A DNA stretch of 64,000 nt, taken from contig JAGYIO010000001.1 of the NCBI GenBank assembly GCA_018402585.1, forward strand, positions 434,001 to 498,000, given 5' to 3'. The stretch is from Chthoniobacterales bacterium (GTDB taxonomy: Bacteria > Verrucomicrobiota > Verrucomicrobiia > Chthoniobacterales > JACTMZ01). Of the stretch, positions 7,375-19,912 are shown in pieces (position 1 is the first letter of the stretch; every line of letters begins with the position of its first letter). Under the pieces are notes generated by a model. That model was not told the origin of the DNA and did not search any database. It saw only the letters and a program-made list of their open reading frames with translations. The position numbers and the translations under genes were made by a program.

Positions 7375-9603
7375 ATGCCGACCAAGCCCACCATCATTTA
7401 CACCAAGACCGACGAAGCCCCGTTGCTCGCCACCTATTCCTTCCTCCCGGTCATCCAAGCCTTCACCAAACCGGCGGGGATCGGGGTCGAACTTCGCGAC
7501 ATTTCCCTGGCCGGACGCCTCCTGGCCACTTTTGCCGACCTGCTGCCGGCCGGGCAAAAGAGGGCCGATGCCTTGACCGAACTGGGCGCTCTGACCCTCC
7601 AACCCGGCGCCAACCTGATCAAACTTCCCAACATCAGCGCCTCGGTGCCCCAGCTCAAAGCCGCAATCACCGAGTTGCAGTCGCAGGGGTTTGCCCTCCC
7701 CGACTACCCCGAAACACCCGCCACCGGCGCGGAGCAAGAAGCCAAGGCGCGCTATGACAAAGTGAAAGGCAGCGCGGTCAATCCTGTCCTGCGCGAAGGC
7801 AACTCCGACCGCCGGGCCCCCAAAGCAGTCAAAGCCTATGCCCGCAAGCATCCCCACCAGATGGGGGTATGGTCGCCGGATTCCCAAACCCGCGTGGCCA
7901 GCATGGAGGCGAACGACTTCTTTGCAAACGAGCAATCGGTCACGATCCGCACCGCCACCACGGCGACGATCGAATTCCTCCCCGCCTCCGGAGAACCTCC
8001 GGTTGTTTTGAAGAAAGGGATCAAGCTGGAGGATGGAGAGGTGTTGGATGCGACTTTCATGAGCACCAAAGCTCTGGTCGCATTTTTCGAAAAACAGATC
8101 GCCACCGCGGCCGAACTCGGCCTGCTTTTCTCCCTCCACCTCAAGGCCACCATGATGCAGGTCTCCGACCCTCTGCTCTTCGGGCATGCGGTCAAGGTTT
8201 TCCTCGGCGACTTCATCCCCCGGCACAGCGCCGTACTGGAAGCACTCGGTGTCGATTTCAACCACGGGCTGGGCGACCTCACGGCCAAAATGGGGCTGCT
8301 GCCCGCTGCGGAAAAAGCAGGACTCGAAGCCGCCTTGGCCGCGACGCTGGCCGCCCGTCCGGCGCTGGCCATGGTCAATTCGGACAAAGGGATCACCAAC
8401 CTCCATGTGCCCAGCGATGTGATCGTCGATGCATCGATGCCGGCCATGATCCGCGAAGGCGGCAAGATGTGGAATACCCAGGGCGAGACCCAGGACACCC
8501 TGGCGGTCATTCCGGACAGTTCCTACGCCCCGGTTTACCAGGCGGTCATCGATTTCTGCCGCACCCATGGCGCACTCGATCCGGTCAAGATGGGTTCCGT
8601 GCCCAATGTCGGGCTCATGGCGCAAAAGGCGGAAGAATACGGTTCGCACGACAAGACCTTCGAAATCCCGAGCGATGGCACCATCCGCGTGACCGATGCC
8701 GCGGGCAACCTCCTCACCGCGCACCAGGTGGAGGCGGGCGACGTCTGGCGGGCCTGCCAAACCAAGGACCGGGCGGTCCGCGATTGGGTCAAGTTGGCGG
8801 TCAAACGCGCCCGCGCGAGCGGCGCACCCGCCATCTTCTGGCTGGAGCAACGCCGGGCCCACGATGCAGAACTCATCGCCAAGGTGCAGACCTATCTGCG
8901 GGAGGAGGATACCGCCGGACTTGATCTCCGCATCCTGCCGCCCGCCGCGGCCTGCCGCTTGAGCCTGGAACGTATCGCGGAGGGCAAGGACACCATTTCG
9001 GTGACCGGCAACGTCCTGCGCGACTACCTGACCGACCTTTTCCCCATCCTCGAAGTCGGCACCAGCGCGAAAATGCTCTCCATTGTCCCGCTGATGGGCG
9101 GTGGCGGGCTTTTCGAAACCGGGGCCGGCGGTTCCGCGCCGAAGCACGTGCAGCAATTCACCGCGGAGAACTACTTGCGCTGGGATTCGCTCGGCGAGTT
9201 CTTCGCGCTGGCCGCGTCCTTGGAGCACCTCGCCGAAGTGACCGGCAGCCAAGAGGCCAAAGTCCTCGCCGAGACCCTCGAGACCGCCACGGCGCAATTT
9301 CTCGAGGAAAACAAAAGCCCCGGACGCAAGCTCGGCACACTCGACAACCGCGGCAGCCATTTTTACCTCGCCCTCTTCTGGGCCCGGGCTCTGGCCGGGC
9401 AGACCGATGACCTCGCCCTGCAGAAGCATTTCCTCCCGCTGGCCGGGGAACTCGCGGCTGAGGAAAAGCAAATCACGGACGAGTTGGCCGCGGTGCAGGG
9501 CCAAGCCGTCGATCTCGGCGGTTACTTCCATCCGGACGAAAGCAAAGCCACCGCCGCGATGCGCCCGAGCGCCACCTTCAATCGGATCATCGACGCGGCG
9601 TGA
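7375..9603 (+). CDS. icd: Isocitrate dehydrogenase (NADP+), monomeric type
   Basis: The 742-residue protein is full length for the monomeric isocitrate dehydrogenase family, which is unrelated in length to the approximately 420-residue dimeric enzyme. Family stretches include [19 protein letters not shown] at the N-terminus, [37 protein letters not shown], and [18 protein letters not shown] near the C-terminus. It oxidatively decarboxylates isocitrate to 2-oxoglutarate with NADP+ in the TCA cycle, in the cytoplasm. It is convergent with glmS, with only 59 bp between the stops. Codon use resembles the neighbours and nothing suggests recent transfer. Confidence 0.95.
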
Positions 9604-9662
9604 AGCCCGGCTGGCCGCGCGGGCGGTTGTCTCCGCTGCCGGGAAACCGCCGGCCGCCAAGC

Positions 9663-11510
9663 TCACTCCACCGTCACGCTCTTGGCCAGATTGCGCGGCT
9701 GGTCCACGTCGCAACCGCGATTCAAGGCAATGTGGTAGGAGAGCAGTTGGAGAGGAATCACGGTCAGCACCGGCATGAGCCAATCCGGCGCGGCCGGGAC
9801 CCACAAGGTGTCGTCGGTGATCTCCGCCAATTCGCGATGGCCCTCCGTGCCGACCCCGATGACCGGACCCTTGCGGGCGCGGACTTCCTGGATGTTGCTC
9901 GCGTTTTTTCCGAAGAGGGCATCGTCGGGCGCGATGAACACGGACGGCATATCGGGATTGATCAGCGCAATAACGCCGTGTTTCAGCTCCGCGCTCGGGT
10001 AACCCGAGGCGGACATATAGCTGATCTCCTTGAGTTTGAGCGCGGCCTCCATCGCGACCGGATATTGGAACTGGCGCCCCATGAAGAGCATGCCGTGGGC
10101 GTTCTCGTATTTTTCCGCGATCTCCGGCAGGCGCGGGTTCATCTCGAGCACCCGGGCCACTTTCTCCGGCAATTTTTCCATCTCCTCGATGATGCGGAGA
10201 CCGTCCGAACTGGAGAGATTCCGGATGCGGCCCATGAGGAGCGACAAGAGGGTGAGGATCGTGACCTGCGAGGTGAACGACTTGGTCGCCGCCACCCCGA
10301 TCTCCGGCCCGGCGTGCATGTAAACCCCGCCGTCGCTCTCGCGCGCGATGGTGCTGGCCACATTATTGCAAATGCCGAGGGTGCGGTGTCCCTTGCGCTG
10401 GCTCTCCCGCAACGCCGCCAGGGTATCGGCCGTCTCGCCGCTCTGGCTGATGACAAAGGACAAGGTGTATTTGTCCATCGGCATGTTGCGGTAACGGAAC
10501 TCGCTGGCGATTTCCACCTCGGTGGGGAGGCAAGCCAGACTTTCCATCAGATACTCCCCGACCACCGCGGCATGGTAGGCCGTGCCGCAGCCGATGAGGA
10601 CAATGCGTTCGACCTCGCGCAACTGCGCGGGGGTCATGTTGAGTCCACCCAGTTTGGCCGTGGCCTCCTCCGCCGAAAGGCGTCCGCGCATCGCGTCGCG
10701 CACTGATGAGGCCTGCTCGTAGATCTCCTTGAGCATGTAGTGCGCATAGTCGCCCTTGGAAACTTCCTCCGCCTCGAAATCAACCCTGCTGATCTCGTAA
10801 TCCTGGCCATCGCCGGCCAGCGACTGGATTTGAAAATTGTCGGGGCGGAGCACGACAATTTCAAAATCCTTCAAATAGACCACGTCGCGCGTGTGGTTGA
10901 CCAAGGCCAACGGGTCGCTGGCCAGGAAATTCTCGCCCTTGCCCACCCCGAGCACGAGCGGACTGCCCCGCCGCGCCCCGACAAGCAGATCCGGCACATC
11001 GCGGTGCATCAGGGCAATCCCGTAAGTCCCGTGCACCTCGCGCAAGGCCAGACGCACCGCCTCGACCAGATGATCGGCCGAGGGCTCACCGAGTTGGATC
11101 GCATATTTGCCGATAAGGTGGGCCAGCACCTCGGTGTCGGTTTCAGAAAGAAAGACGTGCCCCTCGCGCTCCAGTCCGGCGCGCAGTTTCAGGTAGTTTT
11201 CGATCACTCCATTGTGCACCAGCACGATACGGCCGCTCTGATCGGCATGCGGGTGGGCGTTCTCCCCGGTGACCGCACCATGCGTGGCCCAGCGCGTGTG
11301 GCTGATCCCGCGGTTGCCCTGCGCCGGTTCGTCGGCCACCAATTGCGCCAAATTCTGGATGCGGCCGACCGCTTTGCGGATCTGGAGCGTTCCATTGTTG
11401 CCCAAGGCCAGCCCCGCTGAGTCGTAACCCCGGTATTCCAAGCGGCGCAGCCCGTCCAAAAGAATGGGCGCTGCTTCAGCCGGGCCAACGTAACCGATAA
11501 TACCGCACAT
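9663..11510 (-). CDS. glmS: Glutamine-fructose-6-phosphate aminotransferase
   Basis: The 615-residue protein is the usual GlmS length. The N-terminal class II glutaminase domain begins MCGIIGYVG with nucleophile Cys2, which fixes the start at 11510, and has LEYRGYDSAGLA. Two SIS sugar-isomerase domains follow (about 290-430 and 460-600), with CGTAYHAAVVG and SQSGETADTLAAL. The C-terminus DQPRNLAKSVTVE is the conserved family end. It makes glucosamine-6-phosphate from fructose-6-phosphate and glutamine, the first step to UDP-GlcNAc, peptidoglycan and LPS. It is divergent from glgC, which uses the same sugar-phosphate pool. No glmS ribozyme is visible in the 118-bp gap. Confidence 0.97.
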   Translation of the reverse strand: MCGIIGYVGPAEAAPILLDGLRRLEYRGYDSAGLALGNNGTLQIRKAVGRIQNLAQLVADEPAQGNRGISHTRWATHGAVTGENAHPHADQSGRIVLVHNGVIENYLKLRAGLEREGHVFLSETDTEVLAHLIGKYAIQLGEPSADHLVEAVRLALREVHGTYGIALMHRDVPDLLVGARRGSPLVLGVGKGENFLASDPLALVNHTRDVVYLKDFEIVVLRPDNFQIQSLAGDGQDYEISRVDFEAEEVSKGDYAHYMLKEIYEQASSVRDAMRGRLSAEEATAKLGGLNMTPAQLREVERIVLIGCGTAYHAAVVGEYLMESLACLPTEVEIASEFRYRNMPMDKYTLSFVISQSGETADTLAALRESQRKGHRTLGICNNVASTIARESDGGVYMHAGPEIGVAATKSFTSQVTILTLLSLLMGRIRNLSSSDGLRIIEEMEKLPEKVARVLEMNPRLPEIAEKYENAHGMLFMGRQFQYPVAMEAALKLKEISYMSASGYPSAELKHGVIALINPDMPSVFIAPDDALFGKNASNIQEVRARKGPVIGVGTEGHRELAEITDDTLWVPAAPDWLMPVLTVIPLQLLSYHIALNRGCDVDQPRNLAKSVTVE

Positions 11511-11628
11511 GATTGCCCGATCACCATGCGTCATCGGCCCGCGGGTGGCAACTGCGGGAATCACCCCACCCGGGCGAAAGGCAAATCGCGGCGTGACATC
11601 CGCCCCTCTTTGCGCGAACCCATGAGGC

Positions 11629-12936
11629 GTGACCGCGGATCTAGATGCCCCCCGGGTCGGCGCCGCCCTGGCGCGGACCCTGGGCATTATTATGGGGGGC
11701 GGGGCGGGCCAGAGGCTTTTTCCGCTGACCAAAGACCGTTCCAAGCCGGCGGTTCCCCTCGGCGGCAAATACCGTCTGGTCGACATCCCGATCAGCAATT
11801 GCCTCAACTCGGGCATCCGCAGCATCTACGTGCTCACCCAGTTCAATACCGCCTCGCTCCACCAGCACATCAACGGCACCTATAAGTTCGACATCTTCAG
11901 CGCGGGCAGCTTTGTCGAGATCCTCGCCGCCCAACAAACCCCGACCGGCGCCGGCTGGTATCAAGGGACGGCCGATGCGGTGCGGCAAAACCTGAACTAC
12001 TTCCTGGAGAAACCGTGGGACTATTACCTCGTCCTGAGCGGCGACCAGCTTTACCAGATGGATTTCCGCGAGCTGATCGAAAGCCACCTCGCCTCCGGGG
12101 CCGACCTGACCATCGCCACCTTGCCGGTCAACCGCCAAGACGCGACCGGATTCGGCATCATGCAAACCGACGAGGCGCGGCGCATCACGCGATTCGTGGA
12201 GAAACCGACCGAGCCCGCCCTGCTCGACGGCCTGCGCATTCCCGGCCCGCTCCTCGCCGAACTCGGCCTCGTGCCGGGCAGCGATTATTATCAGGCTTCC
12301 ATGGGTATTTACCTGTTCAACCGCTCGGTCCTTGCCGCCTGCCTCGACAACAAGCTGGACGACTTCGGCAAAAACATCATCCCGGCTGCCATCTCGGACC
12401 GGCGTGTCCAAGCGCACATTTTCCAGGGTTACTGGGAAGATATCGGGACCATCCGCTCCTTTTTCGAAGCCAACCTCGCACTTTCCGAAGTCGAACCCTC
12501 CTTCAGCTTCTACCGGCACGACGCGGTCATTTATTCGCGGCCGCGATTTCTCCCCGCGAGCAAAATCAACAGCGCCACGATCCATCGCGCCGTGGTCTCC
12601 GACGGTTGCATCATCACCGAGGCCACCCTCGAACGCTGCGTGGTGGGGATCCGCAGCGTCATCGAGACCGGCGCCGTGCTGCGCAATGTGGTCATGATGG
12701 GCGCGGACTTCTACGAATCGCAGAGCTCCGCTCCCCCCGGCACACCCCCGATCGGCATCGGACGGAACACGACAATCACCGACGCCATCGTCGACAAGAA
12801 CGCCCGCATCGGCGAAGGCGTGGTGATCAGGCCGGAGGGCAAACCTCCGGAATACAATGGCGACAACTACTACATCCGCGACGGCATCATCATCATTCCG
12901 AAAAATGCCGTCATCCCCGACGGCACCTCGATCTGA
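11629..12936 (+). CDS. glgC: Glucose-1-phosphate adenylyltransferase (ADP-glucose pyrophosphorylase)
   Basis: The 435-residue protein carries the GlgC nucleotidyltransferase signature (IMGGGAGQRLFPLTKDRSKPAV, seen as two overlapping parts), then KYRLVDIPISNCLNSGI, WYQGTADAVRQNL, LSGDQLYQMDF and FVEKPTEPA. It ends in a left-handed beta-helix domain (about 310-435). It makes ADP-glucose from ATP and glucose-1-phosphate, the committed step of bacterial glycogen synthesis. An in-frame stop at 11623-11625 and the absence of an early ATG make the GTG at 11629 the likely start. The sugar porter gene follows 28 bp later on the same strand. Confidence 0.96.
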   Translation: MTADLDAPRVGAALARTLGIIMGGGAGQRLFPLTKDRSKPAVPLGGKYRLVDIPISNCLNSGIRSIYVLTQFNTASLHQHINGTYKFDIFSAGSFVEILAAQQTPTGAGWYQGTADAVRQNLNYFLEKPWDYYLVLSGDQLYQMDFRELIESHLASGADLTIATLPVNRQDATGFGIMQTDEARRITRFVEKPTEPALLDGLRIPGPLLAELGLVPGSDYYQASMGIYLFNRSVLAACLDNKLDDFGKNIIPAAISDRRVQAHIFQGYWEDIGTIRSFFEANLALSEVEPSFSFYRHDAVIYSRPRFLPASKINSATIHRAVVSDGCIITEATLERCVVGIRSVIETGAVLRNVVMMGADFYESQSSAPPGTPPIGIGRNTTITDAIVDKNARIGEGVVIRPEGKPPEYNGDNYYIRDGIIIIPKNAVIPDGTSI

Positions 12937-12964: not shown

Positions 12965-14476
12965 ATGTCCTCCTCCCCCCCACCCGCCGCGCCGGCGATT
13001 TCCGGCAAAACCAAACCAATTGTTTACTTTGTCGGCCTGACCGCCGCACTGGCCGGACTCCTCTTCGGTCTCGATGTCGGGGTCATTTCCGGCGCGAACG
13101 TATTTATCCAGAAAGATTTCGGGGTCGACGACCACACCGTGGAGAACATCGTCAGCTCCCTGCTCTGGGGTGCGGTTTTCGGCGTGCTGATCAGCGGATT
13201 TTTTTCCCTCCGCCTCGGTCGCCGCGGCACCATCCTGATCAGTGCCCTGGTCTTCGCCGTCGGCTCCATCCTCTGCTCCATGGCTCCTTCGGCCGGTGCG
13301 CTCATCGCCGCGCGCTTCTTCCTCGGTATCGCGGTGGGCATGGCCTCGTTTGTCGCCCCGCTTTACCTCTCGGAAATCGCCCCGCAAAACGTCCGCGGCG
13401 CGCTTATTGCCATGTATCAGCTGATGATCACCATCGGCATCGTGCTGGCCTTTCTCAGCGACACCTTTTTCTCCACCTACGCCAATCTCCAACCGCTGGC
13501 CGCCGAAATGAGCCAATCGCTCAGCACTCTGGCCGGCGGACGCGGACAAATGGTCATGCAGGCCTATTTCGCCATGCCTTGGCGATGGATGCTCGGGATC
13601 ATCGCCGTGCCGGCCGTGCTCATGTTTCTCGGTATGCTTTTTCTCCCGGAAAGCCCGCGCTGGCTGGTCCTGAAAAAACGCGGCCCCCAAGCACTCCAAG
13701 TGCTCCGCCGTCTGGCCAACAGCGACGCGGAGGCGGAACGCGAATTCGCCGAGATCGAGTCGAGCCTCAGGATCAAACAAAAGGGCTTTTCCCTCTTCCG
13801 CGAGAACCGCAACTTCCGCCGCGCCGTTTTCCTCGGCGTCGGTTTGCAGGTCATCCAGCAATTTACCGGCATCAATGTGATCATGTATTACGCCCCCCGC
13901 ATCCTGCAGGAAGCCGGCTTCAACACCACGGCCGAGCAGATGTGGGGCACGGTCCTGATCGGCACGATCAACGTGCTCGCCACCTTCATTGCCATCGCTT
14001 TTGTCGACCGGTTGGGACGCAAACCGATGATGTTCGCCGGGTTTCTTGTCATGGGCCTCGGCATGCTCTCGCTCGGCTCCCTCTTCCACTTGGGCCTCGG
14101 CGGCCACCCGGACGGAGGACTGACCATGAGCTACCTCGCCGTTGCTGCGCTCGTCGTCTTCATCATCGGCTTCGCCATGAGCGCCGGACCGATCATCTGG
14201 ATCCTCTGCGCGGAAATTTTCCCGCTGGCCGGACGCGATTTCGGCATCACCTGCAGCACGGTGACCAATTGGACGGCCAATGCCCTTGTCGGCATGACCT
14301 TCCTCACCATGTTGAACAGCCTCGGCCCCGGGAACACCTTCCTGCTCTATGGAGCGCTCAATGCCGTCTTCATTGTCTTCTTCCTCGCTCTCGTGCCCGA
14401 GACCAAGGGCGTCTCCCTCGAGTCGATCGAGGAGAAGCTCCTCGCCGGCGCCCCGCTGAAAAATATCGGCCGCTGA
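12965..14476 (+). CDS. Sugar porter family MFS transporter
   Basis: The 503-residue protein has twelve predicted membrane helices and the sugar porter signatures: GLLFGLDVGVISGA in helix 1, LGRRGTILIS after helix 2, PLYLSEIAP, LPESPRWLVLKKR in the central loop, LQVIQQFTGINVIMYYAP in helix 7, DRLGRKPMM, and PETKGVSLESIEEKL at the C-terminus. It probably imports a hexose or pentose by proton symport. A 14-residue Ser/Pro-rich N-terminus precedes the first helix. It follows glgC on the same strand, linking sugar uptake with glycogen synthesis. The exact sugar cannot be read from sequence. Confidence 0.93.
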   Translation: MSSSPPPAAPAISGKTKPIVYFVGLTAALAGLLFGLDVGVISGANVFIQKDFGVDDHTVENIVSSLLWGAVFGVLISGFFSLRLGRRGTILISALVFAVGSILCSMAPSAGALIAARFFLGIAVGMASFVAPLYLSEIAPQNVRGALIAMYQLMITIGIVLAFLSDTFFSTYANLQPLAAEMSQSLSTLAGGRGQMVMQAYFAMPWRWMLGIIAVPAVLMFLGMLFLPESPRWLVLKKRGPQALQVLRRLANSDAEAEREFAEIESSLRIKQKGFSLFRENRNFRRAVFLGVGLQVIQQFTGINVIMYYAPRILQEAGFNTTAEQMWGTVLIGTINVLATFIAIAFVDRLGRKPMMFAGFLVMGLGMLSLGSLFHLGLGGHPDGGLTMSYLAVAALVVFIIGFAMSAGPIIWILCAEIFPLAGRDFGITCSTVTNWTANALVGMTFLTMLNSLGPGNTFLLYGALNAVFIVFFLALVPETKGVSLESIEEKLLAGAPLKNIGR

Positions 14477-14564
14477 TCAAGCGAGCGACTTTGCCACCAC
14501 GCAACTTCTTGGCCCGTGGCTTCCGCCGGCCCGGAGAGGGTCGCGCGGCTTGGCTTGACCCGGG

Positions 14565-15152
14565 TCAATCCTCGATCTTCACCGGCGTGTCCTGTTTGAC
14601 GCGCTGAAATATGAGCGGCGCAATATAGGCCGGCAAGCGCACCGCGCGGTCCGCGGAAGGATAACCCGGCAAGCGTCCGGCATGCAGGGCCAGCCCGTCA
14701 TCATCGAGGCGTAGAAAATACCGCACCGGCACCGGGCGGAAGGTGGTGCCGCTCGGGGCCGCGTCGATCCGGGTGCTCGCGCCATGACGGACCGCATTGC
14801 CCTCGCGATCGACAAAATCCCCGTACAAATTCGAGCTTTGCTCTGTGGCCTTCTCTTTCACGCTGAAGTCTCCGGTCGGGGTTTGGCCGCGACGCTTTCC
14901 CGTGGAGACCGGGGCATCGATCGCCACTTCCTCCTCCACGTAGAGATAAACCCGCTGCCGGCCGAGAGAGACCACGATCCGCGTGTTCTCCGGAGTCGCG
15001 CGGTCCAAGACGCGCGGTACGACCTTCGGGGGATCCTGCGCGACGATCAGCTCACCGGGACCCCGAATTCCCGCTTCGGATGCCTCCTCGGCCCATGCCG
15101 GCGCAACGGCCAAGACCGCGGCCCCCAGCGCAAACCTGAGCAGATTTCCCAT
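14565..15152 (-). CDS. L,D-transpeptidase-fold (YkuD) protein with degenerate active site
   Basis: The 195-residue protein starts with a signal peptide (cleavage expected after APAWA, about residue 22). A YkuD-like domain follows, with RIVVSLGRQRVYLYVEEEVAIDAPVST, GQTPTGDFSV, and LALHAGRLPGYP near the C-terminus. Active L,D-transpeptidases have a final SHGC(V/I)RLP motif; here the equivalent stretch reads SADRAVRLP, so both the His-Gly pair and the nucleophile Cys are replaced (Cys to Ala). The fold and the upstream His remain. It is therefore likely a non-catalytic peptidoglycan-binding relative, or it uses other chemistry. It is divergent from a large membrane-anchored Ig-like protein, with 57 bp between the starts. 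Confidence 0.85.
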   Translation of the reverse strand: MGNLLRFALGAAVLAVAPAWAEEASEAGIRGPGELIVAQDPPKVVPRVLDRATPENTRIVVSLGRQRVYLYVEEEVAIDAPVSTGKRRGQTPTGDFSVKEKATEQSSNLYGDFVDREGNAVRHGASTRIDAAPSGTTFRPVPVRYFLRLDDDGLALHAGRLPGYPSADRAVRLPAYIAPLIFQRVKQDTPVKIED

Positions 15153-15209
15153 CACCCGCAAAATAGGGTTCGCCTCGCCTTTTTCCAACCCATTTGCTTC
15201 TCTGGCCCG

Positions 15210-17459
15210 GTGAGTGTCCGCCTCTTCGCTTGCCTGGCGATTTTCTGCGCCGCGCAGCTTGCGGACAGCCCGGCGAAAAAACCGGAACGCGTTTCGCCCA
15301 AAGCCGTAAATGTCGAAGTCGAAGTCGCGCGGGGGGGGAGCGTGCGCATTCCCTTGCGCGGGTTCGAACGCAATCTCAACCCGCTGACCGCCCGACCGCT
15401 GACCCGGCCGCAGCACGGCCGACTCTCGCCAGTCGAACAAAACAAGGGCCCGGAGCGCCAAGGGCCCGCTTACCTCACCTACACCCACGGTGACGATGAA
15501 GATTCGGTCAGCGATACCTTCGCCTTCGAGGTCAAGGCCGGGATGACCGGACGAACCGGCCGCGGGCGCGTCATGATCAAGATCATCGACGCCAGCCCGG
15601 TGTTATCCATCACCCCGGAACTGCTTGATTTCGGACCGGCCGCACTGGGAGATCCCCCGACTCGGCGCGTGGTGGAGTTGGCCAACATCGGCGGCGGCGT
15701 TCTCACCGGGTTCCTCCGACCAACCGAACCGTTTGTGCTGCAGGACGAGGGGAGCTTTGTTCTGCGCCGCGGCGAGAAAACCCGCATCCCCCTGCTCTTT
15801 GCCCCGGAACGGGCCGGTGAATTCGTTTTCCGCCTCCAACCGGTCGCCGGCGACCCGGCCTTGCTCATCCTCAAAGGCCTGGCTCTTCCGCCGCTCGCGC
15901 TCGAGATTGCGGAGCAAACATTTTTACCCAACTTAGACCAGTCACGCAGCGCCCTCGTCGTGGTGAAAAACCAGTCGGCGCTGCCGCGCACCGTATCCAT
16001 TGGCCTTCCGCCGGAGAGCCCGCTCGAAGCGGTGGCCGACTTTGCCCTTGAGCCGGGCGAAAGTGCAGAGGTCAACCTGCGCATCCCGGCTGAGCGCAAA
16101 GCATACCTGCCGCCCTTCGACGTCCGCTTCGAAAGTGCAGGGCAGGCCGAGTTGCGCGAATTCAGCGCTCCCGCCATCCCGGCCGCACTTGAGGTCAGTG
16201 CGGAGCTTGACTTCGGGGCAGTCAGACCCGGCTCCGTAGCCACCGCTACCCTGATTCTCGGCAATGCTGGCGGCACACCCGCTGAAGGCAAATTGCTTTT
16301 GCCCGCATCAATCAGTCCGGCCAACGGGGCCACAGCTTTCACTCTTTCCCCCGGAAAGAAACTGCCCATCCCACTGGAACTGCGCCTCAAGCCGGGCCAA
16401 GCCCTTCCCACTGAGATGTCCGTCACCCTGCTCGGAAAAGAAGTCGTCGTGAAGGTCACCGCGCGTCAAATCCGGCCCGCCCCTGCGCCGACCCCAACTC
16501 CTCCGCCGACCCCAATTCCTCCGCCTCCGGCCCCAGATTTTGTCCTCAACATCGACATCCGCTACGAAACAACCCCCGAAGGCCCGGCTCTCATTTGGGT
16601 CGAAAAACCGGGTTGGCTGGATTTCGTCCTCGAGCACCGCGCCGGAAGGACTAGCGCGTGGCAAAACTACCGCCGGCCCGAACCGCCAGGAGGATTGCTC
16701 GGGTGGCTGCAGGGCCTGGCCGACGGGATTCGCCAACGCCTCGATACGCCGATCGAAAGACCCGACCCCACGAAAGAGCTTTCCAACGACGCACCCACCG
16801 GCCGACAACTCATCGCAGAGTCCCCTCTCGGCACCGATGAATGGCGTCTCGTCGCCAGACCCGAGGGCGGCGCCGCGCGGCCCGCGTCCGTGCCGTTCCA
16901 GATCCGCGATCACCAACTCGTCGACCTCGCAGAGCAGCCTGCTCCTCGCCCAGCGCCCTCGGCCGCCGCGCCCCCGACCACCCGCAGAAATGGCCGAGAA
17001 ACCGCCATGGCCTCCGCCGGCAGCAAACCCGAAGGGAACGGCGCCTTCTTGCAGATCGCCTTCGCGCCCGAGCTTGAGGTCCGCAGCTTCCGCCTCGAGC
17101 GCGGCGCGATGGTTGCCCCCCTTGAGCCGAAAACCGGCATGCCCGGCGCGCCCACATTTGAAATTCTCGACCCACCCGAAGCGACCGTGGAAATCCTCGG
17201 CCTCGCGGAGGCGGAATCCGCGGGACGCCAGCTGACGGTGTGTGCCGCCCGCATCGAGGGCCTGCCCGCCGGGACACGCACCTATTGGCGCGCCGTTCCG
17301 TCTGGACCATCGGGCGAGCTTGCGCCAACCAATGTGTTCCTGGTCGACACCCTCCCCCTGCCCCCTTTTCCCTGGCAAACCGTGGCGATCGGCGCGCTCT
17401 GCGCCCTGCTCGCCGGGGTGCTTTACCTCCGCTGGCGCCTCAACCGTCCTCCTTCCTGA
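15210..17459 (+). CDS. Large envelope protein with ASH/Ig-like repeats and C-terminal membrane anchor
   Basis: From a GTG at 15210 the product is 749 residues. It has an N-terminal signal sequence (VRLFACLAIFCAAQLA), a cadherin-like/Ig region (about 30-125), and repeated beta-sandwich domains of the ASH or choice-of-anchor-D type (about 130-430; for example TPELLDFGPAALGDPPTRRV and LDFGAVRPGSVATATL). A Pro-rich hinge of TPTPPP type (about 435-455), a less recognisable C-terminal region, one membrane helix (about 720-742) and a short basic tail complete it. ASH domains are protein- or filament-binding modules. No catalytic motif is visible. It heads a row of envelope genes with the downstream lipoprotein and GYF-domain protein. 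Function unknown. Confidence 0.75.
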   Translation: MSVRLFACLAIFCAAQLADSPAKKPERVSPKAVNVEVEVARGGSVRIPLRGFERNLNPLTARPLTRPQHGRLSPVEQNKGPERQGPAYLTYTHGDDEDSVSDTFAFEVKAGMTGRTGRGRVMIKIIDASPVLSITPELLDFGPAALGDPPTRRVVELANIGGGVLTGFLRPTEPFVLQDEGSFVLRRGEKTRIPLLFAPERAGEFVFRLQPVAGDPALLILKGLALPPLALEIAEQTFLPNLDQSRSALVVVKNQSALPRTVSIGLPPESPLEAVADFALEPGESAEVNLRIPAERKAYLPPFDVRFESAGQAELREFSAPAIPAALEVSAELDFGAVRPGSVATATLILGNAGGTPAEGKLLLPASISPANGATAFTLSPGKKLPIPLELRLKPGQALPTEMSVTLLGKEVVVKVTARQIRPAPAPTPTPPPTPIPPPPAPDFVLNIDIRYETTPEGPALIWVEKPGWLDFVLEHRAGRTSAWQNYRRPEPPGGLLGWLQGLADGIRQRLDTPIERPDPTKELSNDAPTGRQLIAESPLGTDEWRLVARPEGGAARPASVPFQIRDHQLVDLAEQPAPRPAPSAAAPPTTRRNGRETAMASAGSKPEGNGAFLQIAFAPELEVRSFRLERGAMVAPLEPKTGMPGAPTFEILDPPEATVEILGLAEAESAGRQLTVCAARIEGLPAGTRTYWRAVPSGPSGELAPTNVFLVDTLPLPPFPWQTVAIGALCALLAGVLYLRWRLNRPPS

Positions 17460-17485
17460 GCGGCCCACTGCCCCCAATCTTGGTC

Positions 17486-17959
17486 ATGACACTGCGCCCC
17501 GCCGGTTGCCTCGCTTCGGGCGGATGGCTCACCGCCTGCACCTCCCTTCCCCCTCCGCAGATCGGGGCCTCGGTCCATCTCGCGCGTCAGGCGGGGCCGT
17601 GGCACAAAATTGCCTTCCCCCCGCATTGGTGCCAAAGCGGCTCGGCCCAGACAAAATACCCCGGGGCCCGAGAGACGTATTCGTGGGGTCAACACTTGCG
17701 AGCGGGGCGGCCGCAAGAAGAGAAATCCCAAGGCCGCTTCTCCTCGTCAGGCGATGGCGACTACTCAATCCTCGCTTTTGATCCGGCCTGCCCCTCGGTC
17801 GGCGCCGGCCCGCCCAACCACAAATATTTCTCCATCCTCGCCCGCCAGAACCCCCCCGAACCCGGAATCCTCGAAGGCATCCGCTCCCGCTTTGCCGCCA
17901 AGCACCACGATGTTAGCCGCTTGCGCCCCACGCCCTCTTTGGCGCAGAATTGGAAGTAA
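17486..17959 (+). CDS. Putative lipoprotein, unknown function
   Basis: The 157-residue frame begins with a short lipoprotein-like leader with lipobox LTAC (Cys about residue 18), followed by a region rich in Pro, Ser and Gly without a recognised domain. Codon third positions are GC-rich like the neighbours. Its TAA stop (17957-17959) shares one base with the ATG of the next gene, a translational-coupling arrangement that supports both frames. No clear ribosome site precedes the ATG, so the start is uncertain. It lies 26 bp after the ASH-domain gene and probably belongs to the same operon. Confidence 0.55.
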   Translation: MTLRPAGCLASGGWLTACTSLPPPQIGASVHLARQAGPWHKIAFPPHWCQSGSAQTKYPGARETYSWGQHLRAGRPQEEKSQGRFSSSGDGDYSILAFDPACPSVGAGPPNHKYFSILARQNPPEPGILEGIRSRFAAKHHDVSRLRPTPSLAQNWK

Positions 17960-18555
17960 TGATCCCAGAAGACTCCCCTCAAAGCCCCCCTACCAGCCCC
18001 CCAGGTACACCCGGATCCCCATTACGACCGCCGGATTTTCTCTTGCCGAAGTCGGAGCGAAATACCGAGCGGTCTCGCGACTCCAAGGCCGACCTCTACG
18101 TTTCCTCGGGGGGTCAGACCTACGGCCCCTCCACTCCGCGGGAGGTGGTGGCCAGCGTGCGCACCGGATATTTCGACGCGGATGCGGCCTTTTGGGTCGA
18201 AAGCCGCCATGAGTGGAGACCTCTGGCCGAATTGGCCCAGCACGTGGAATTACCTCCGCCCAACCTGGAACCGGTCCACCTCGAACTGCCCCCGCGCGTC
18301 CCCCTGCACTCACCGCCAACCGAGGCCGTCACCCCGAAATGGCCCGGGGCGCGCCGCCGGTCATCTTCCCCTCCTGCTCTTGCTTCTTCCCCCTCCCCCT
18401 CTCCGCCCCGCGGCGAAAAGCGGCGGCGTGGGCGCAAAGGGCGCCAAGGAAAAACGGCAAAAGGGCGGCTGGTCGGGCGGCTCATCGTGTTCGGGGCCAT
18501 CCTCTTCGCCATCCTGATCACCGCCGGGCTCCTCCTGCTCCTGAGCAGGGTTTAA
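17959..18555 (+). CDS. GYF-domain (GYF_2) single-pass membrane protein
   Basis: The 198-residue protein has a Pro-rich N-terminus (1-35), then a GYF_2 domain (about 45-95; YVSSGGQTYGPSTPREVV, then TGYFDADAAFWVE and EWRPLAEL). A Pro/Ser/Arg-rich linker and a basic patch (RGEKRRRGRKGRQGK) follow, and the C-terminal membrane helix (about 175-196) ends right at the C-terminus. GYF_2 domains bind proline-rich sequences and sit on the cytoplasmic side in many PVC membrane proteins. The tail-anchored topology implies a cytoplasmic domain. The upstream ASH protein has a Pro-rich hinge, but that lies across the membrane, so a direct contact is not implied. Confidence 0.75.
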   Translation: MIPEDSPQSPPTSPPGTPGSPLRPPDFLLPKSERNTERSRDSKADLYVSSGGQTYGPSTPREVVASVRTGYFDADAAFWVESRHEWRPLAELAQHVELPPPNLEPVHLELPPRVPLHSPPTEAVTPKWPGARRRSSSPPALASSPSPSPPRGEKRRRGRKGRQGKTAKGRLVGRLIVFGAILFAILITAGLLLLLSRV

Positions 18556-18592
18556 CCCTGGCTATCCCGCAATACCGGTGGCCCGGTGGAGC

Positions 18593-19912
18593 TCACGCCT
18601 CCCCGGCGGGGCCTCCTCCCCCTGCTTCGGCCCGGGAGGAGGAAGCCGCTGCATCCCTTGCTGCCGCGACCGTAAGACGCAGGGCCTGGAGCCGGATAAA
18701 TCCCGTGGCGTCCGACTGGTTGTATGCCTGCGTCGGGTCGGCCTCCATCGTGGCAATCTGCGGATTGTAGAGGCTGCGCGGACTGCGCCGGCCCGCGGCG
18801 ATAACATTGCCCTTGTAAAGTTTTACCCGCACTTCGCCGGTCACCTCCTGCTGCGTCTCCTCGACCAGCGCTTGCAGGGCACGGCGCTCGGGCGCGAACC
18901 AGAATCCATTGTAAACCAGTGTGCTGTACTGCGGGATGAGCGAGTCACGGAGGTGCATGGCCTCGCGGTCCATGGTCAGCGACTCCATCTGGCGGTGGGC
19001 AAAATGCAAGATCGCCCCGCCCGGCGTTTCATAGACCCCGCGGCTTTTCATCCCGACAAAACGGTTCTCCACCATGTCGACCCGCCCGATGCCGTGCTTG
19101 CCGCCCAGTTTGTTGAGCACCCGCATGACGAGGAGCGGACTCAACGTCTTCCCGTCTCCTTGGTGCCCGAGTTCCTGCCGCACCTGCGTGACCCCCGCGC
19201 CCTCCAATCCGGTGCAGTCGCCCTTGGTGAAATGCAAAATGAGCCGCTCCGCCTCGTCCGGCGCGTCTTCCGGCGCCGCGCTGAGACGGAACATGTCCTT
19301 GTTCTCCTCGTCGCTCGCGTCGAACCACGGATCCTCGAGGATTCCGCTCTCGTAGCTGATGTGGAGAAGATTGCGGTCCGTCGAATACGGCTTCTTCGCC
19401 GTGACCGGCACCGGGATGCGGTGCGCCTCGGCGTAGGCGATCATTTCGGCGCGGCCGGGGAATTTTTCCCGGAACCGCTCCTGCCGCCAGGGCGCGATCA
19501 CGGCCAATTCCGGGGCCAAAGCCGCCGCGGCCAACTCGAAGCGCACCTGGTCATTCCCCTTGCCCGTCGCCCCGTGGGCCACCGCGGCCGCACCCTCGGA
19601 CCGCGCGATTTCCACCATGCGCTTGGCGATGAGCGGCCGGGCAATGCTCGTGCCGAGAAAATACTGGCCCTCGTAGATCGCGGCGGCGCGGATCATGGGG
19701 AAAATAAAATCCCGGGCGAATTCCTCCTGCAGATCATCGACAAAACATTTCGCCGCCCCCGTGCTCAGCGCCTTGGCCTCGAGCCCGTCCAGTTCCTCCT
19801 CTTGCCCGATATTGGCGCAGAAGGCAATGACCTCCGCTCCGTAGGTTTCTTGCAGCCACTGCAGCAGCACCGAGGTGTCCAAGCCGCCCGAATAAGCACA
19901 TACGATCTTCAT
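18593..19912 (-). CDS. argG: Argininosuccinate synthase
   Basis: The 439-residue protein begins with the N-type ATP pyrophosphatase P-loop [15 protein letters not shown] (about residues 5-19). It has the family stretches [36 protein letters not shown], and [21 protein letters not shown] (seen in two pieces). It joins citrulline and aspartate using ATP in arginine biosynthesis. The length is near the usual approximately 400 residues, with an extra Ala/Gly-rich C-terminal tail of about 25 residues ([15 protein letters not shown]) that is not part of the fold. It is divergent from an Rrf2 regulator, 92 bp away. No other arginine genes are nearby. Confidence 0.97.

Follow-up and report, generated by a model that had tools for sequence, protein, structure and literature searches.

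At the locus described here, a gene of the L,D-transpeptidase (YkuD) family that has lost its catalytic motif stands divergent to the gene of an anchored protein with ASH-type domains, which is followed by two further genes. This raises the question of what a transpeptidase without its catalytic residues is kept for, and which of its neighbours share in that task. The window, that is, the whole stretch of DNA analysed, is 64,000 nucleotides long and corresponds to positions 434,001-498,000 (G000:C1:434001-498000) of a 2.46-Mb draft genome. Family f1 as sampled consists of one genus of uncultured bacteria with 11 genomes (the genus below), and the isolate names suggest that the nearest relatives come from lake and other water samples.

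An earlier note on this DNA had described a divergent YkuD gene and three co-directional genes separated by a 26-bp gap and a one-base overlap, and this layout is confirmed from the sequence:

14565-15152, minus strand: YkuD gene, a catalytically dead L,D-transpeptidase (LDT) ortholog; signal peptide recognized by eye
15210-17459, plus strand: ASH gene, divergent from the YkuD gene with 57 bp between them
17486-17959, plus strand: lipocalin gene, decayed, for a Blc-type lipoprotein; 26-bp gap after the ASH gene
17959-18555, plus strand: GYF_2 gene, with a one-base overlap (TAATG) with the lipocalin gene

In the genus, the order glmS - glgC - sugar transporter - LDT - ASH - (lipocalin) - GYF - argG - rrf2 - exoD - greA is largely collinear; a few genomes lack the transporter or have another in its place, and parts of the flanks fall beyond contig ends. 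A Pfam scan identified argG and the sugar transporter; the genes that we take to be glmS, glgC, rrf2, exoD and greA were named by our own recognition of their sequences. The locus gave no match to the sugar transporter in G005, G008 or G009, and the transporter in L111 (G003, 10403-11842) shares only 32% identity with that of the window, as if replaced. With its longest start, the glmS-like frame of the window (9663-11825) runs into the 5' end of the divergently oriented glgC-like frame (11629-12936); its true start is probably further in. A scan of positions 14400-18700 for sigma-70-like promoters found none, which is uninformative, since only 0.4 were expected by chance.

Loss of the catalytic motif

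The fold family of the YkuD gene product is clear. The Pfam YkuD domain (PF03734) is matched over its whole length (E 5.7e-10; residues 58-194 against positions 2-146 of 146), the AlphaFold model has a mean pLDDT of 81.6, and L,D-transpeptidases head the Foldseek list of PDB matches with TM-scores of about 0.5. LDT matches at E <= 1e-40 were present in 149 of the 213 genomes of the order, most likely Chthoniobacterales. The 108 distinct loci compared are those retrieved, and do not represent all 149 genomes; HGC is kept in 96 of them and lost in 12. For the comparison of columns, 106 of the 108 loci were aligned (94 intact, 12 dead), leaving out the distant paralogs L095 and L105. Three sites summarize the difference:

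14643-14654, minus strand: former SHGC, now ADRA, residues 168-171; S, H, G and C in 94/94 aligned intact relatives, Cys in 0/12 dead proteins
14682-14684, minus strand: His158, kept in 94/94 intact and 12/12 dead proteins
14649-14651, minus strand: Asp169, at the position of the motif His; Asp in 11/12 dead proteins (the 11 of the genus)

The protein thus lacks the [S/T]HGC motif and Cys of an active L,D-transpeptidase, as the earlier note had proposed in calling it dead, and the change from SHGC to ADRA belongs to a loss common to its congeners. Every one of the 11 genus genomes lacks the motif Cys, with the readings ADRA, SDTA, ADTA, ADSS, SDMT, SDVS and TDGT; the protein of G011, from a second family, reads AHSN and likewise has no Cys. 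The motif His and Gly are gone in 11 of the 12 dead proteins. Nine columns are invariant in all 94 intact proteins (H106, Y111, G141, M144, G156, S168, H169, G170 and C171), and these are changed in 8-12 of the 12 dead ones. In contrast, 24 columns are kept in nearly all intact and dead proteins, among them S84, G86, P93, G95, K102, G112 and A133 as well as H158, G160, L162-G164 and R173. A single bad assembly as the source of the loss is ruled out, as the loss is common to 11 separate genomes. The motif loss is old. A scan of viral contigs, with patterns taken from the protein of the window and able to reach close relatives only, confirmed no relative.

At the threshold used, V46, T58, G65, R140, A159, D169, V172, R185 and I194 are newly fixed in the dead group. 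They include no new Ser, Cys or Lys, and in 7 of the 12 dead proteins Ala has taken the position of the lost Cys; both findings argue against a new enzyme that would use another nucleophile, or Asp169 together with His158, for a different reaction. Such an enzyme would nevertheless suit the recurrence of Asp169 in 11 of the dead proteins and of His158 in all 12, and one Thr is among the newly fixed residues. A Legionella YafK protein, in the available part of its description, turns over a beta-lactam in a serine-dependent manner with its Cys dispensable (PMC13400389). On balance, we consider a new catalytic activity quite improbable.

The LDT tree (69 rows) groups G011 with the genus (support 93/97), and a second tree, built from 41 selected rows of the 108 after masking of the five motif residues, again places it inside the genus group (89/96). 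G011 forms a long branch, and in the ASH tree (38 rows, quick method) it does not fall with the genus. The ASH tree and the LDT trees disagree on G011, and the motif may have been lost either once or twice. The locus in question (L121) carries its AHSN transpeptidase beside an ASH gene and may represent an independent loss.

The reading frame of the dead transpeptidase is open, free of inner stops, in 11/11 genomes, down to 49-57% identity. Nei-Gojobori estimates of omega were 0.07-0.12 for the conserved part (six close congener pairs) and 0.09-0.16 when more of the gene was included (eight pairs). For comparison, the six-pair set gave 0.05-0.10 for glgC and 0.04-0.06 for glmS, and intact LDT orthologs gave 0.03-0.13 (fifteen pairs). 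The dead protein has roughly double the omega of typical intact pairs; it is therefore constrained about two-fold less than the intact enzyme, yet far from neutral. The doubled omega is what a slowly decaying gene, kept by chance, would also produce. However, the open frames in all 11 genomes and omega values of 0.07-0.16 make this explanation barely credible, and random decay is ruled out by the omega values. With its catalytic residues lost and purifying selection acting across species, the dead LDT is very probably a maintained pseudoenzyme.

The ASH protein and the divergent pair

The divergent neighbour of the pseudoenzyme has the following parts:

15210-17459, plus strand: ASH / choice-of-anchor-D protein, 749 aa, with signal peptide, Ig-like/ASH domains, Pro-rich linker, two beta regions and C-terminal helix
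15297-16469, plus strand: four N-terminal Ig-like domains, about residues 30-420; boundaries set by eye from the AlphaFold model
16479-16556, plus strand: proline-rich linker, residues 424-449, of low pLDDT in the AlphaFold model
17373-17438, plus strand: C-terminal membrane helix, residues 722-743, from the sequence and the AlphaFold model

The Ig-like domains are the region best conserved across the order; in the AlphaFold model (34 sequences, mean pLDDT 85.2, pTM 0.48), the two beta regions span residues ~450-575 and ~600-715. The Pfam profile for HYDIN/ASH-type Ig domains matches at 4.9e-4, below its cut-off here but above it in relatives, and NCBIfam choice_anch_D matches at 1.9e-5, below cut-off. 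In the Foldseek search, ciliary central-apparatus chains rank first, with low TM-scores, as expected because the chain is flexible. With relatives above the Pfam cut-off and AlphaFold and Foldseek in agreement, we place the protein among the ASH-type tandem Ig proteins. In six congeners it is 744-781 residues long, versus 432-647 residues in 30 other relatives, with start codons picked by script; therefore, the C-terminal half is enlarged in the genus. Three pairs with G001, in which 30-31 codons of unrelated match were aligned, were ignored in the omega estimates for ASH. In most relatives the protein ends with a hydrophobic segment followed by a short basic tail. The C-terminal membrane helix bears out the anchored protein of the earlier note, and going by its sequence features the protein fits a periplasmic location with an anchor in the inner membrane.

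An ASH gene stands divergent to LDT in 41 of the 108 distinct loci, mostly beside an intact transpeptidase, and the pair spans at least eight families (f1, f2, f3, f4, f6, f7, f9 and f10) where family labels are known. The 41 consist of 37 loci flagged by script and four counted by hand (L012, L158, L072 and L081), where long stop-to-stop frames overlap. A class-wide search added three more intact pairs (L265-L267). The ASH gene adjoins 11 of the 12 dead loci, and the remaining one (G001) stops at a contig edge. The flanks vary across the order, and outside the genus the divergent LDT/ASH pair is the only part that recurs.

The two genes also occur apart. No ASH match was found in 67 of the 108 LDT loci, only four of which had less than 600 bases of room, and all of 14 further ASH loci (L284-L297, eight of them outside the order), read over 8-13 kb, had no LDT nearby. 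Since each occurs without the other in many loci, neither needs the other to be adjacent. In L098 (G022, of the same family as G011) the ASH gene is kept, and an LDT ortholog was found neither beside it nor at E <= 1e-40 in the genome. Ten ASH neighbours from nine loci (six without LDT) were scanned and had no common theme: a helicase, a radical SAM protein, two CinA proteins, a C39-type peptidase, a 6PGD-like protein, a ribulose-phosphate epimerase, a Mur ligase and two matchless proteins. Class-wide, 91 of 384 genomes had ASH-profile matches at E <= 1e-10, a good part of which are single Ig-like stretches of very long frames. In G005, G009 and G010, the ASH gene is found as two halves, each at the end of a separate contig, as would be expected if the assembly broke inside the gene. 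In L238 (on the same contig as L167; 7946-10004), the ASH gene is split between two frames that overlap (7946-9520 and 9240-10004), which looks like a frameshift in the genome or the assembly. Taken together, the comparison supports an older two-gene envelope module of LDT and ASH as the core of the locus, in which the enzyme turned into a non-catalytic protein.

The lipocalin and GYF genes

The earlier note had joined all four genes into a scaffold spanning the envelope and had taken their separation in every related genome as grounds for giving the idea up. Within the genus they do stay together, but this is weak evidence because the whole neighbourhood is collinear there.

The first of these had been called a lipoprotein. 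Its product has a lipobox-like LTAC, seen by eye, at the start; the identity of the product has to be revised to a Blc-type lipocalin in decay. The Lipocalin_2 profile matches the window copy at E 3e-5, only 0.4 bits over cut-off, and over positions 83-145 of 146 only, so that the copy lacks a complete domain, whereas two congeners match over positions 1-145 of 146 (9e-43 and 4e-47). Compared with the DNA of the congener locus L107 (77% identity), the window copy has deletions of 8, 42 and 1 bp, and because of these about 67 bases are out of frame before the 3' end returns to frame:

~17656-17722, plus strand: out-of-frame stretch of the lipocalin gene, about 67 bases, from the DNA alignment with L107

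Among the residues aligned with the congener, the window copy has lost four of six tryptophans and both cysteines. Omega values were 0.63-0.76 (three pairs). Of the 10 congeners that could be tested, three (G005, G008 and G010) lack the gene at this locus, and a Lipocalin_2 match is absent from the whole of their genomes; the copy of G002 lies at a contig end and has an internal stop. As it is missing in three congeners and broken here, the lipocalin is dispensable, and it is being lost in the genus. An intact Blc-type lipocalin is encoded elsewhere in the genome of the window (G000:C30:172615-173040, E 4.9e-40), which may explain how the window copy could decay. A lipocalin profile run over 205 loci (duplicates included) found no match outside the genus.

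The last gene encodes a protein with the C-terminal membrane helix that the earlier note had ascribed to it:

17959-18555, plus strand: GYF_2-domain protein with C-terminal membrane helix; genus-specific neighbour; Pfam GYF_2 3e-5

The GYF_2 domain scored 24.1 bits in the protein scan, against a cut-off of 25.8, and 26.9 bits, over the cut-off, in the genome search. The gene is present in all nine testable genus genomes, this one included, with an omega of 0.32 (one pair). Over the 205 loci (duplicates included), among which L268-L272 are genus loci, the GYF profile gave outside the genus only one domain-level match, in L238 (2.2e-7); that protein is a different, multi-helix one, about 7 kb from the transpeptidase. 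The GYF protein is a lineage-specific add-on. A basic stretch before the C-terminal helix suggests that the GYF domain is cytoplasmic. Its contact with the proline-rich linker of ASH is therefore unlikely, since the charge distribution predicts a cytoplasmic GYF domain and a periplasmic linker.

Collinearity of the four genes in the genus, and the short overlap of the lipocalin and GYF genes that also occurs in the congener loci L109, L110 and L111, would suit a trans-envelope scaffold of LDT, ASH, lipocalin and GYF. However, the rest of the neighbourhood is equally collinear, the lipocalin is missing or broken as described above, and neither it nor the GYF protein was found as a neighbour outside the genus, where LDT and ASH alone recur. 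This comparison gives no support to the four-part scaffold, and we regard it as very improbable.

Possible role and comparison with known systems

The strong selection on the dead LDT, together with its position beside the ASH rod, suggests that the protein is used for binding rather than catalysis. The secreted LDT and the divergently transcribed ASH rod, predicted to be periplasmic and anchored in the inner membrane, form the two-gene envelope module, which occurs in many Chthoniobacterales. In the genus, the LDT has given up Cys, His, mostly Gly and other invariant columns while purifying selection continued. The kept residues His158, Arg173, S84, G86, P93, G95 and K102 might then hold peptidoglycan stem peptides, or the ASH protein, without reacting with them, and the pair would act as a sensor or tether of the wall and not as a cross-linker. 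Cross-linking would be left to intact paralogs at other loci. We give an even chance to the general form of this proposal, in which the dead LDT now acts by binding to wall peptides, to ASH or to both, and the LDT/ASH pair serves to sense or tether the wall. A more specific version, in which the genus LDT is a non-catalytic peptidoglycan reader with a rebuilt putative His158/Asp169/Arg173 site and the ASH rod is its wall-to-membrane tether or sensor, is tentative and, as a whole, rather unlikely.

The dead LDT could also regulate the intact paralogs, by competing for substrate or by entering a mixed complex, with ASH merely a co-regulated neighbour. YkuD paralogs elsewhere in the genus do carry SHGC, in 18 of the 19 loci read. 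However, at the genus loci no paralog was seen next to the dead gene, and the neighbour that recurs across families is ASH; regulation of paralogs is therefore unlikely in our view, even with the precedent of the LytM proteins considered below. The nineteenth locus (L134, a paralog of G002) reads SLGC, possibly a further loss of the motif histidine.

The LytM fold is unrelated to the YkuD fold. LytM proteins without catalytic activity, among them Caulobacter DipM, regulate wall hydrolases according to the available part of the report (PMC10336132). They resemble the protein described here in being inactive wall-enzyme domains, which in their case are kept as regulators.

In the literature, covered in part through titles and the beginnings of abstracts, neither a lineage-wide dead L,D-transpeptidase nor an LDT/ASH pair was described. 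The closest parallel to the binding proposal is Acinetobacter LdtJ, a transpeptidase-family protein with a role in the cell for which its activity is not needed. As far as the accessible part of that study goes, the C390S mutant supports growth and cell shape, and its authors propose a scaffolding role (PMC12548408). The same part also reports that the YkuD domain itself can be deleted and that the role resides in other domains (PMC12548408). LdtJ is an active enzyme with a dispensable YkuD domain, whereas here a lineage has lost its catalytic residues and the protein is little more than a YkuD domain. Because the YkuD domain of LdtJ is dispensable, this precedent, so far as the source is available, supports the binding proposal only in part.

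The ASH protein shares tandem Ig-like domains with HYDIN, ASPM and choice-of-anchor-D proteins, and ciliary central-apparatus chains are its first PDB matches; it differs from them in its signal peptide, its single C-terminal membrane helix and its place in a bacterial envelope. Blc-type lipocalins (Lipocalin_2) have the full domain, as in two congeners, whereas the window copy is frame-disrupted and shortened. With the YkuD L,D-transpeptidases, the dead group has in common the fold, the signal peptide, the first motif His and the 24 conserved columns, and it differs in the absent Cys of SHGC, the His and Gly of SHGC gone in 11/12 and the nine changed columns. Because related groups carry this locus, ASH neighbour included, either with an intact or with a dead enzyme, a comparison of orthologs allows a binding role to be told apart from catalysis. 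In the available part of the LdtJ study, a non-enzymatic role was argued from engineered mutants; here, evolution has made a comparable change.
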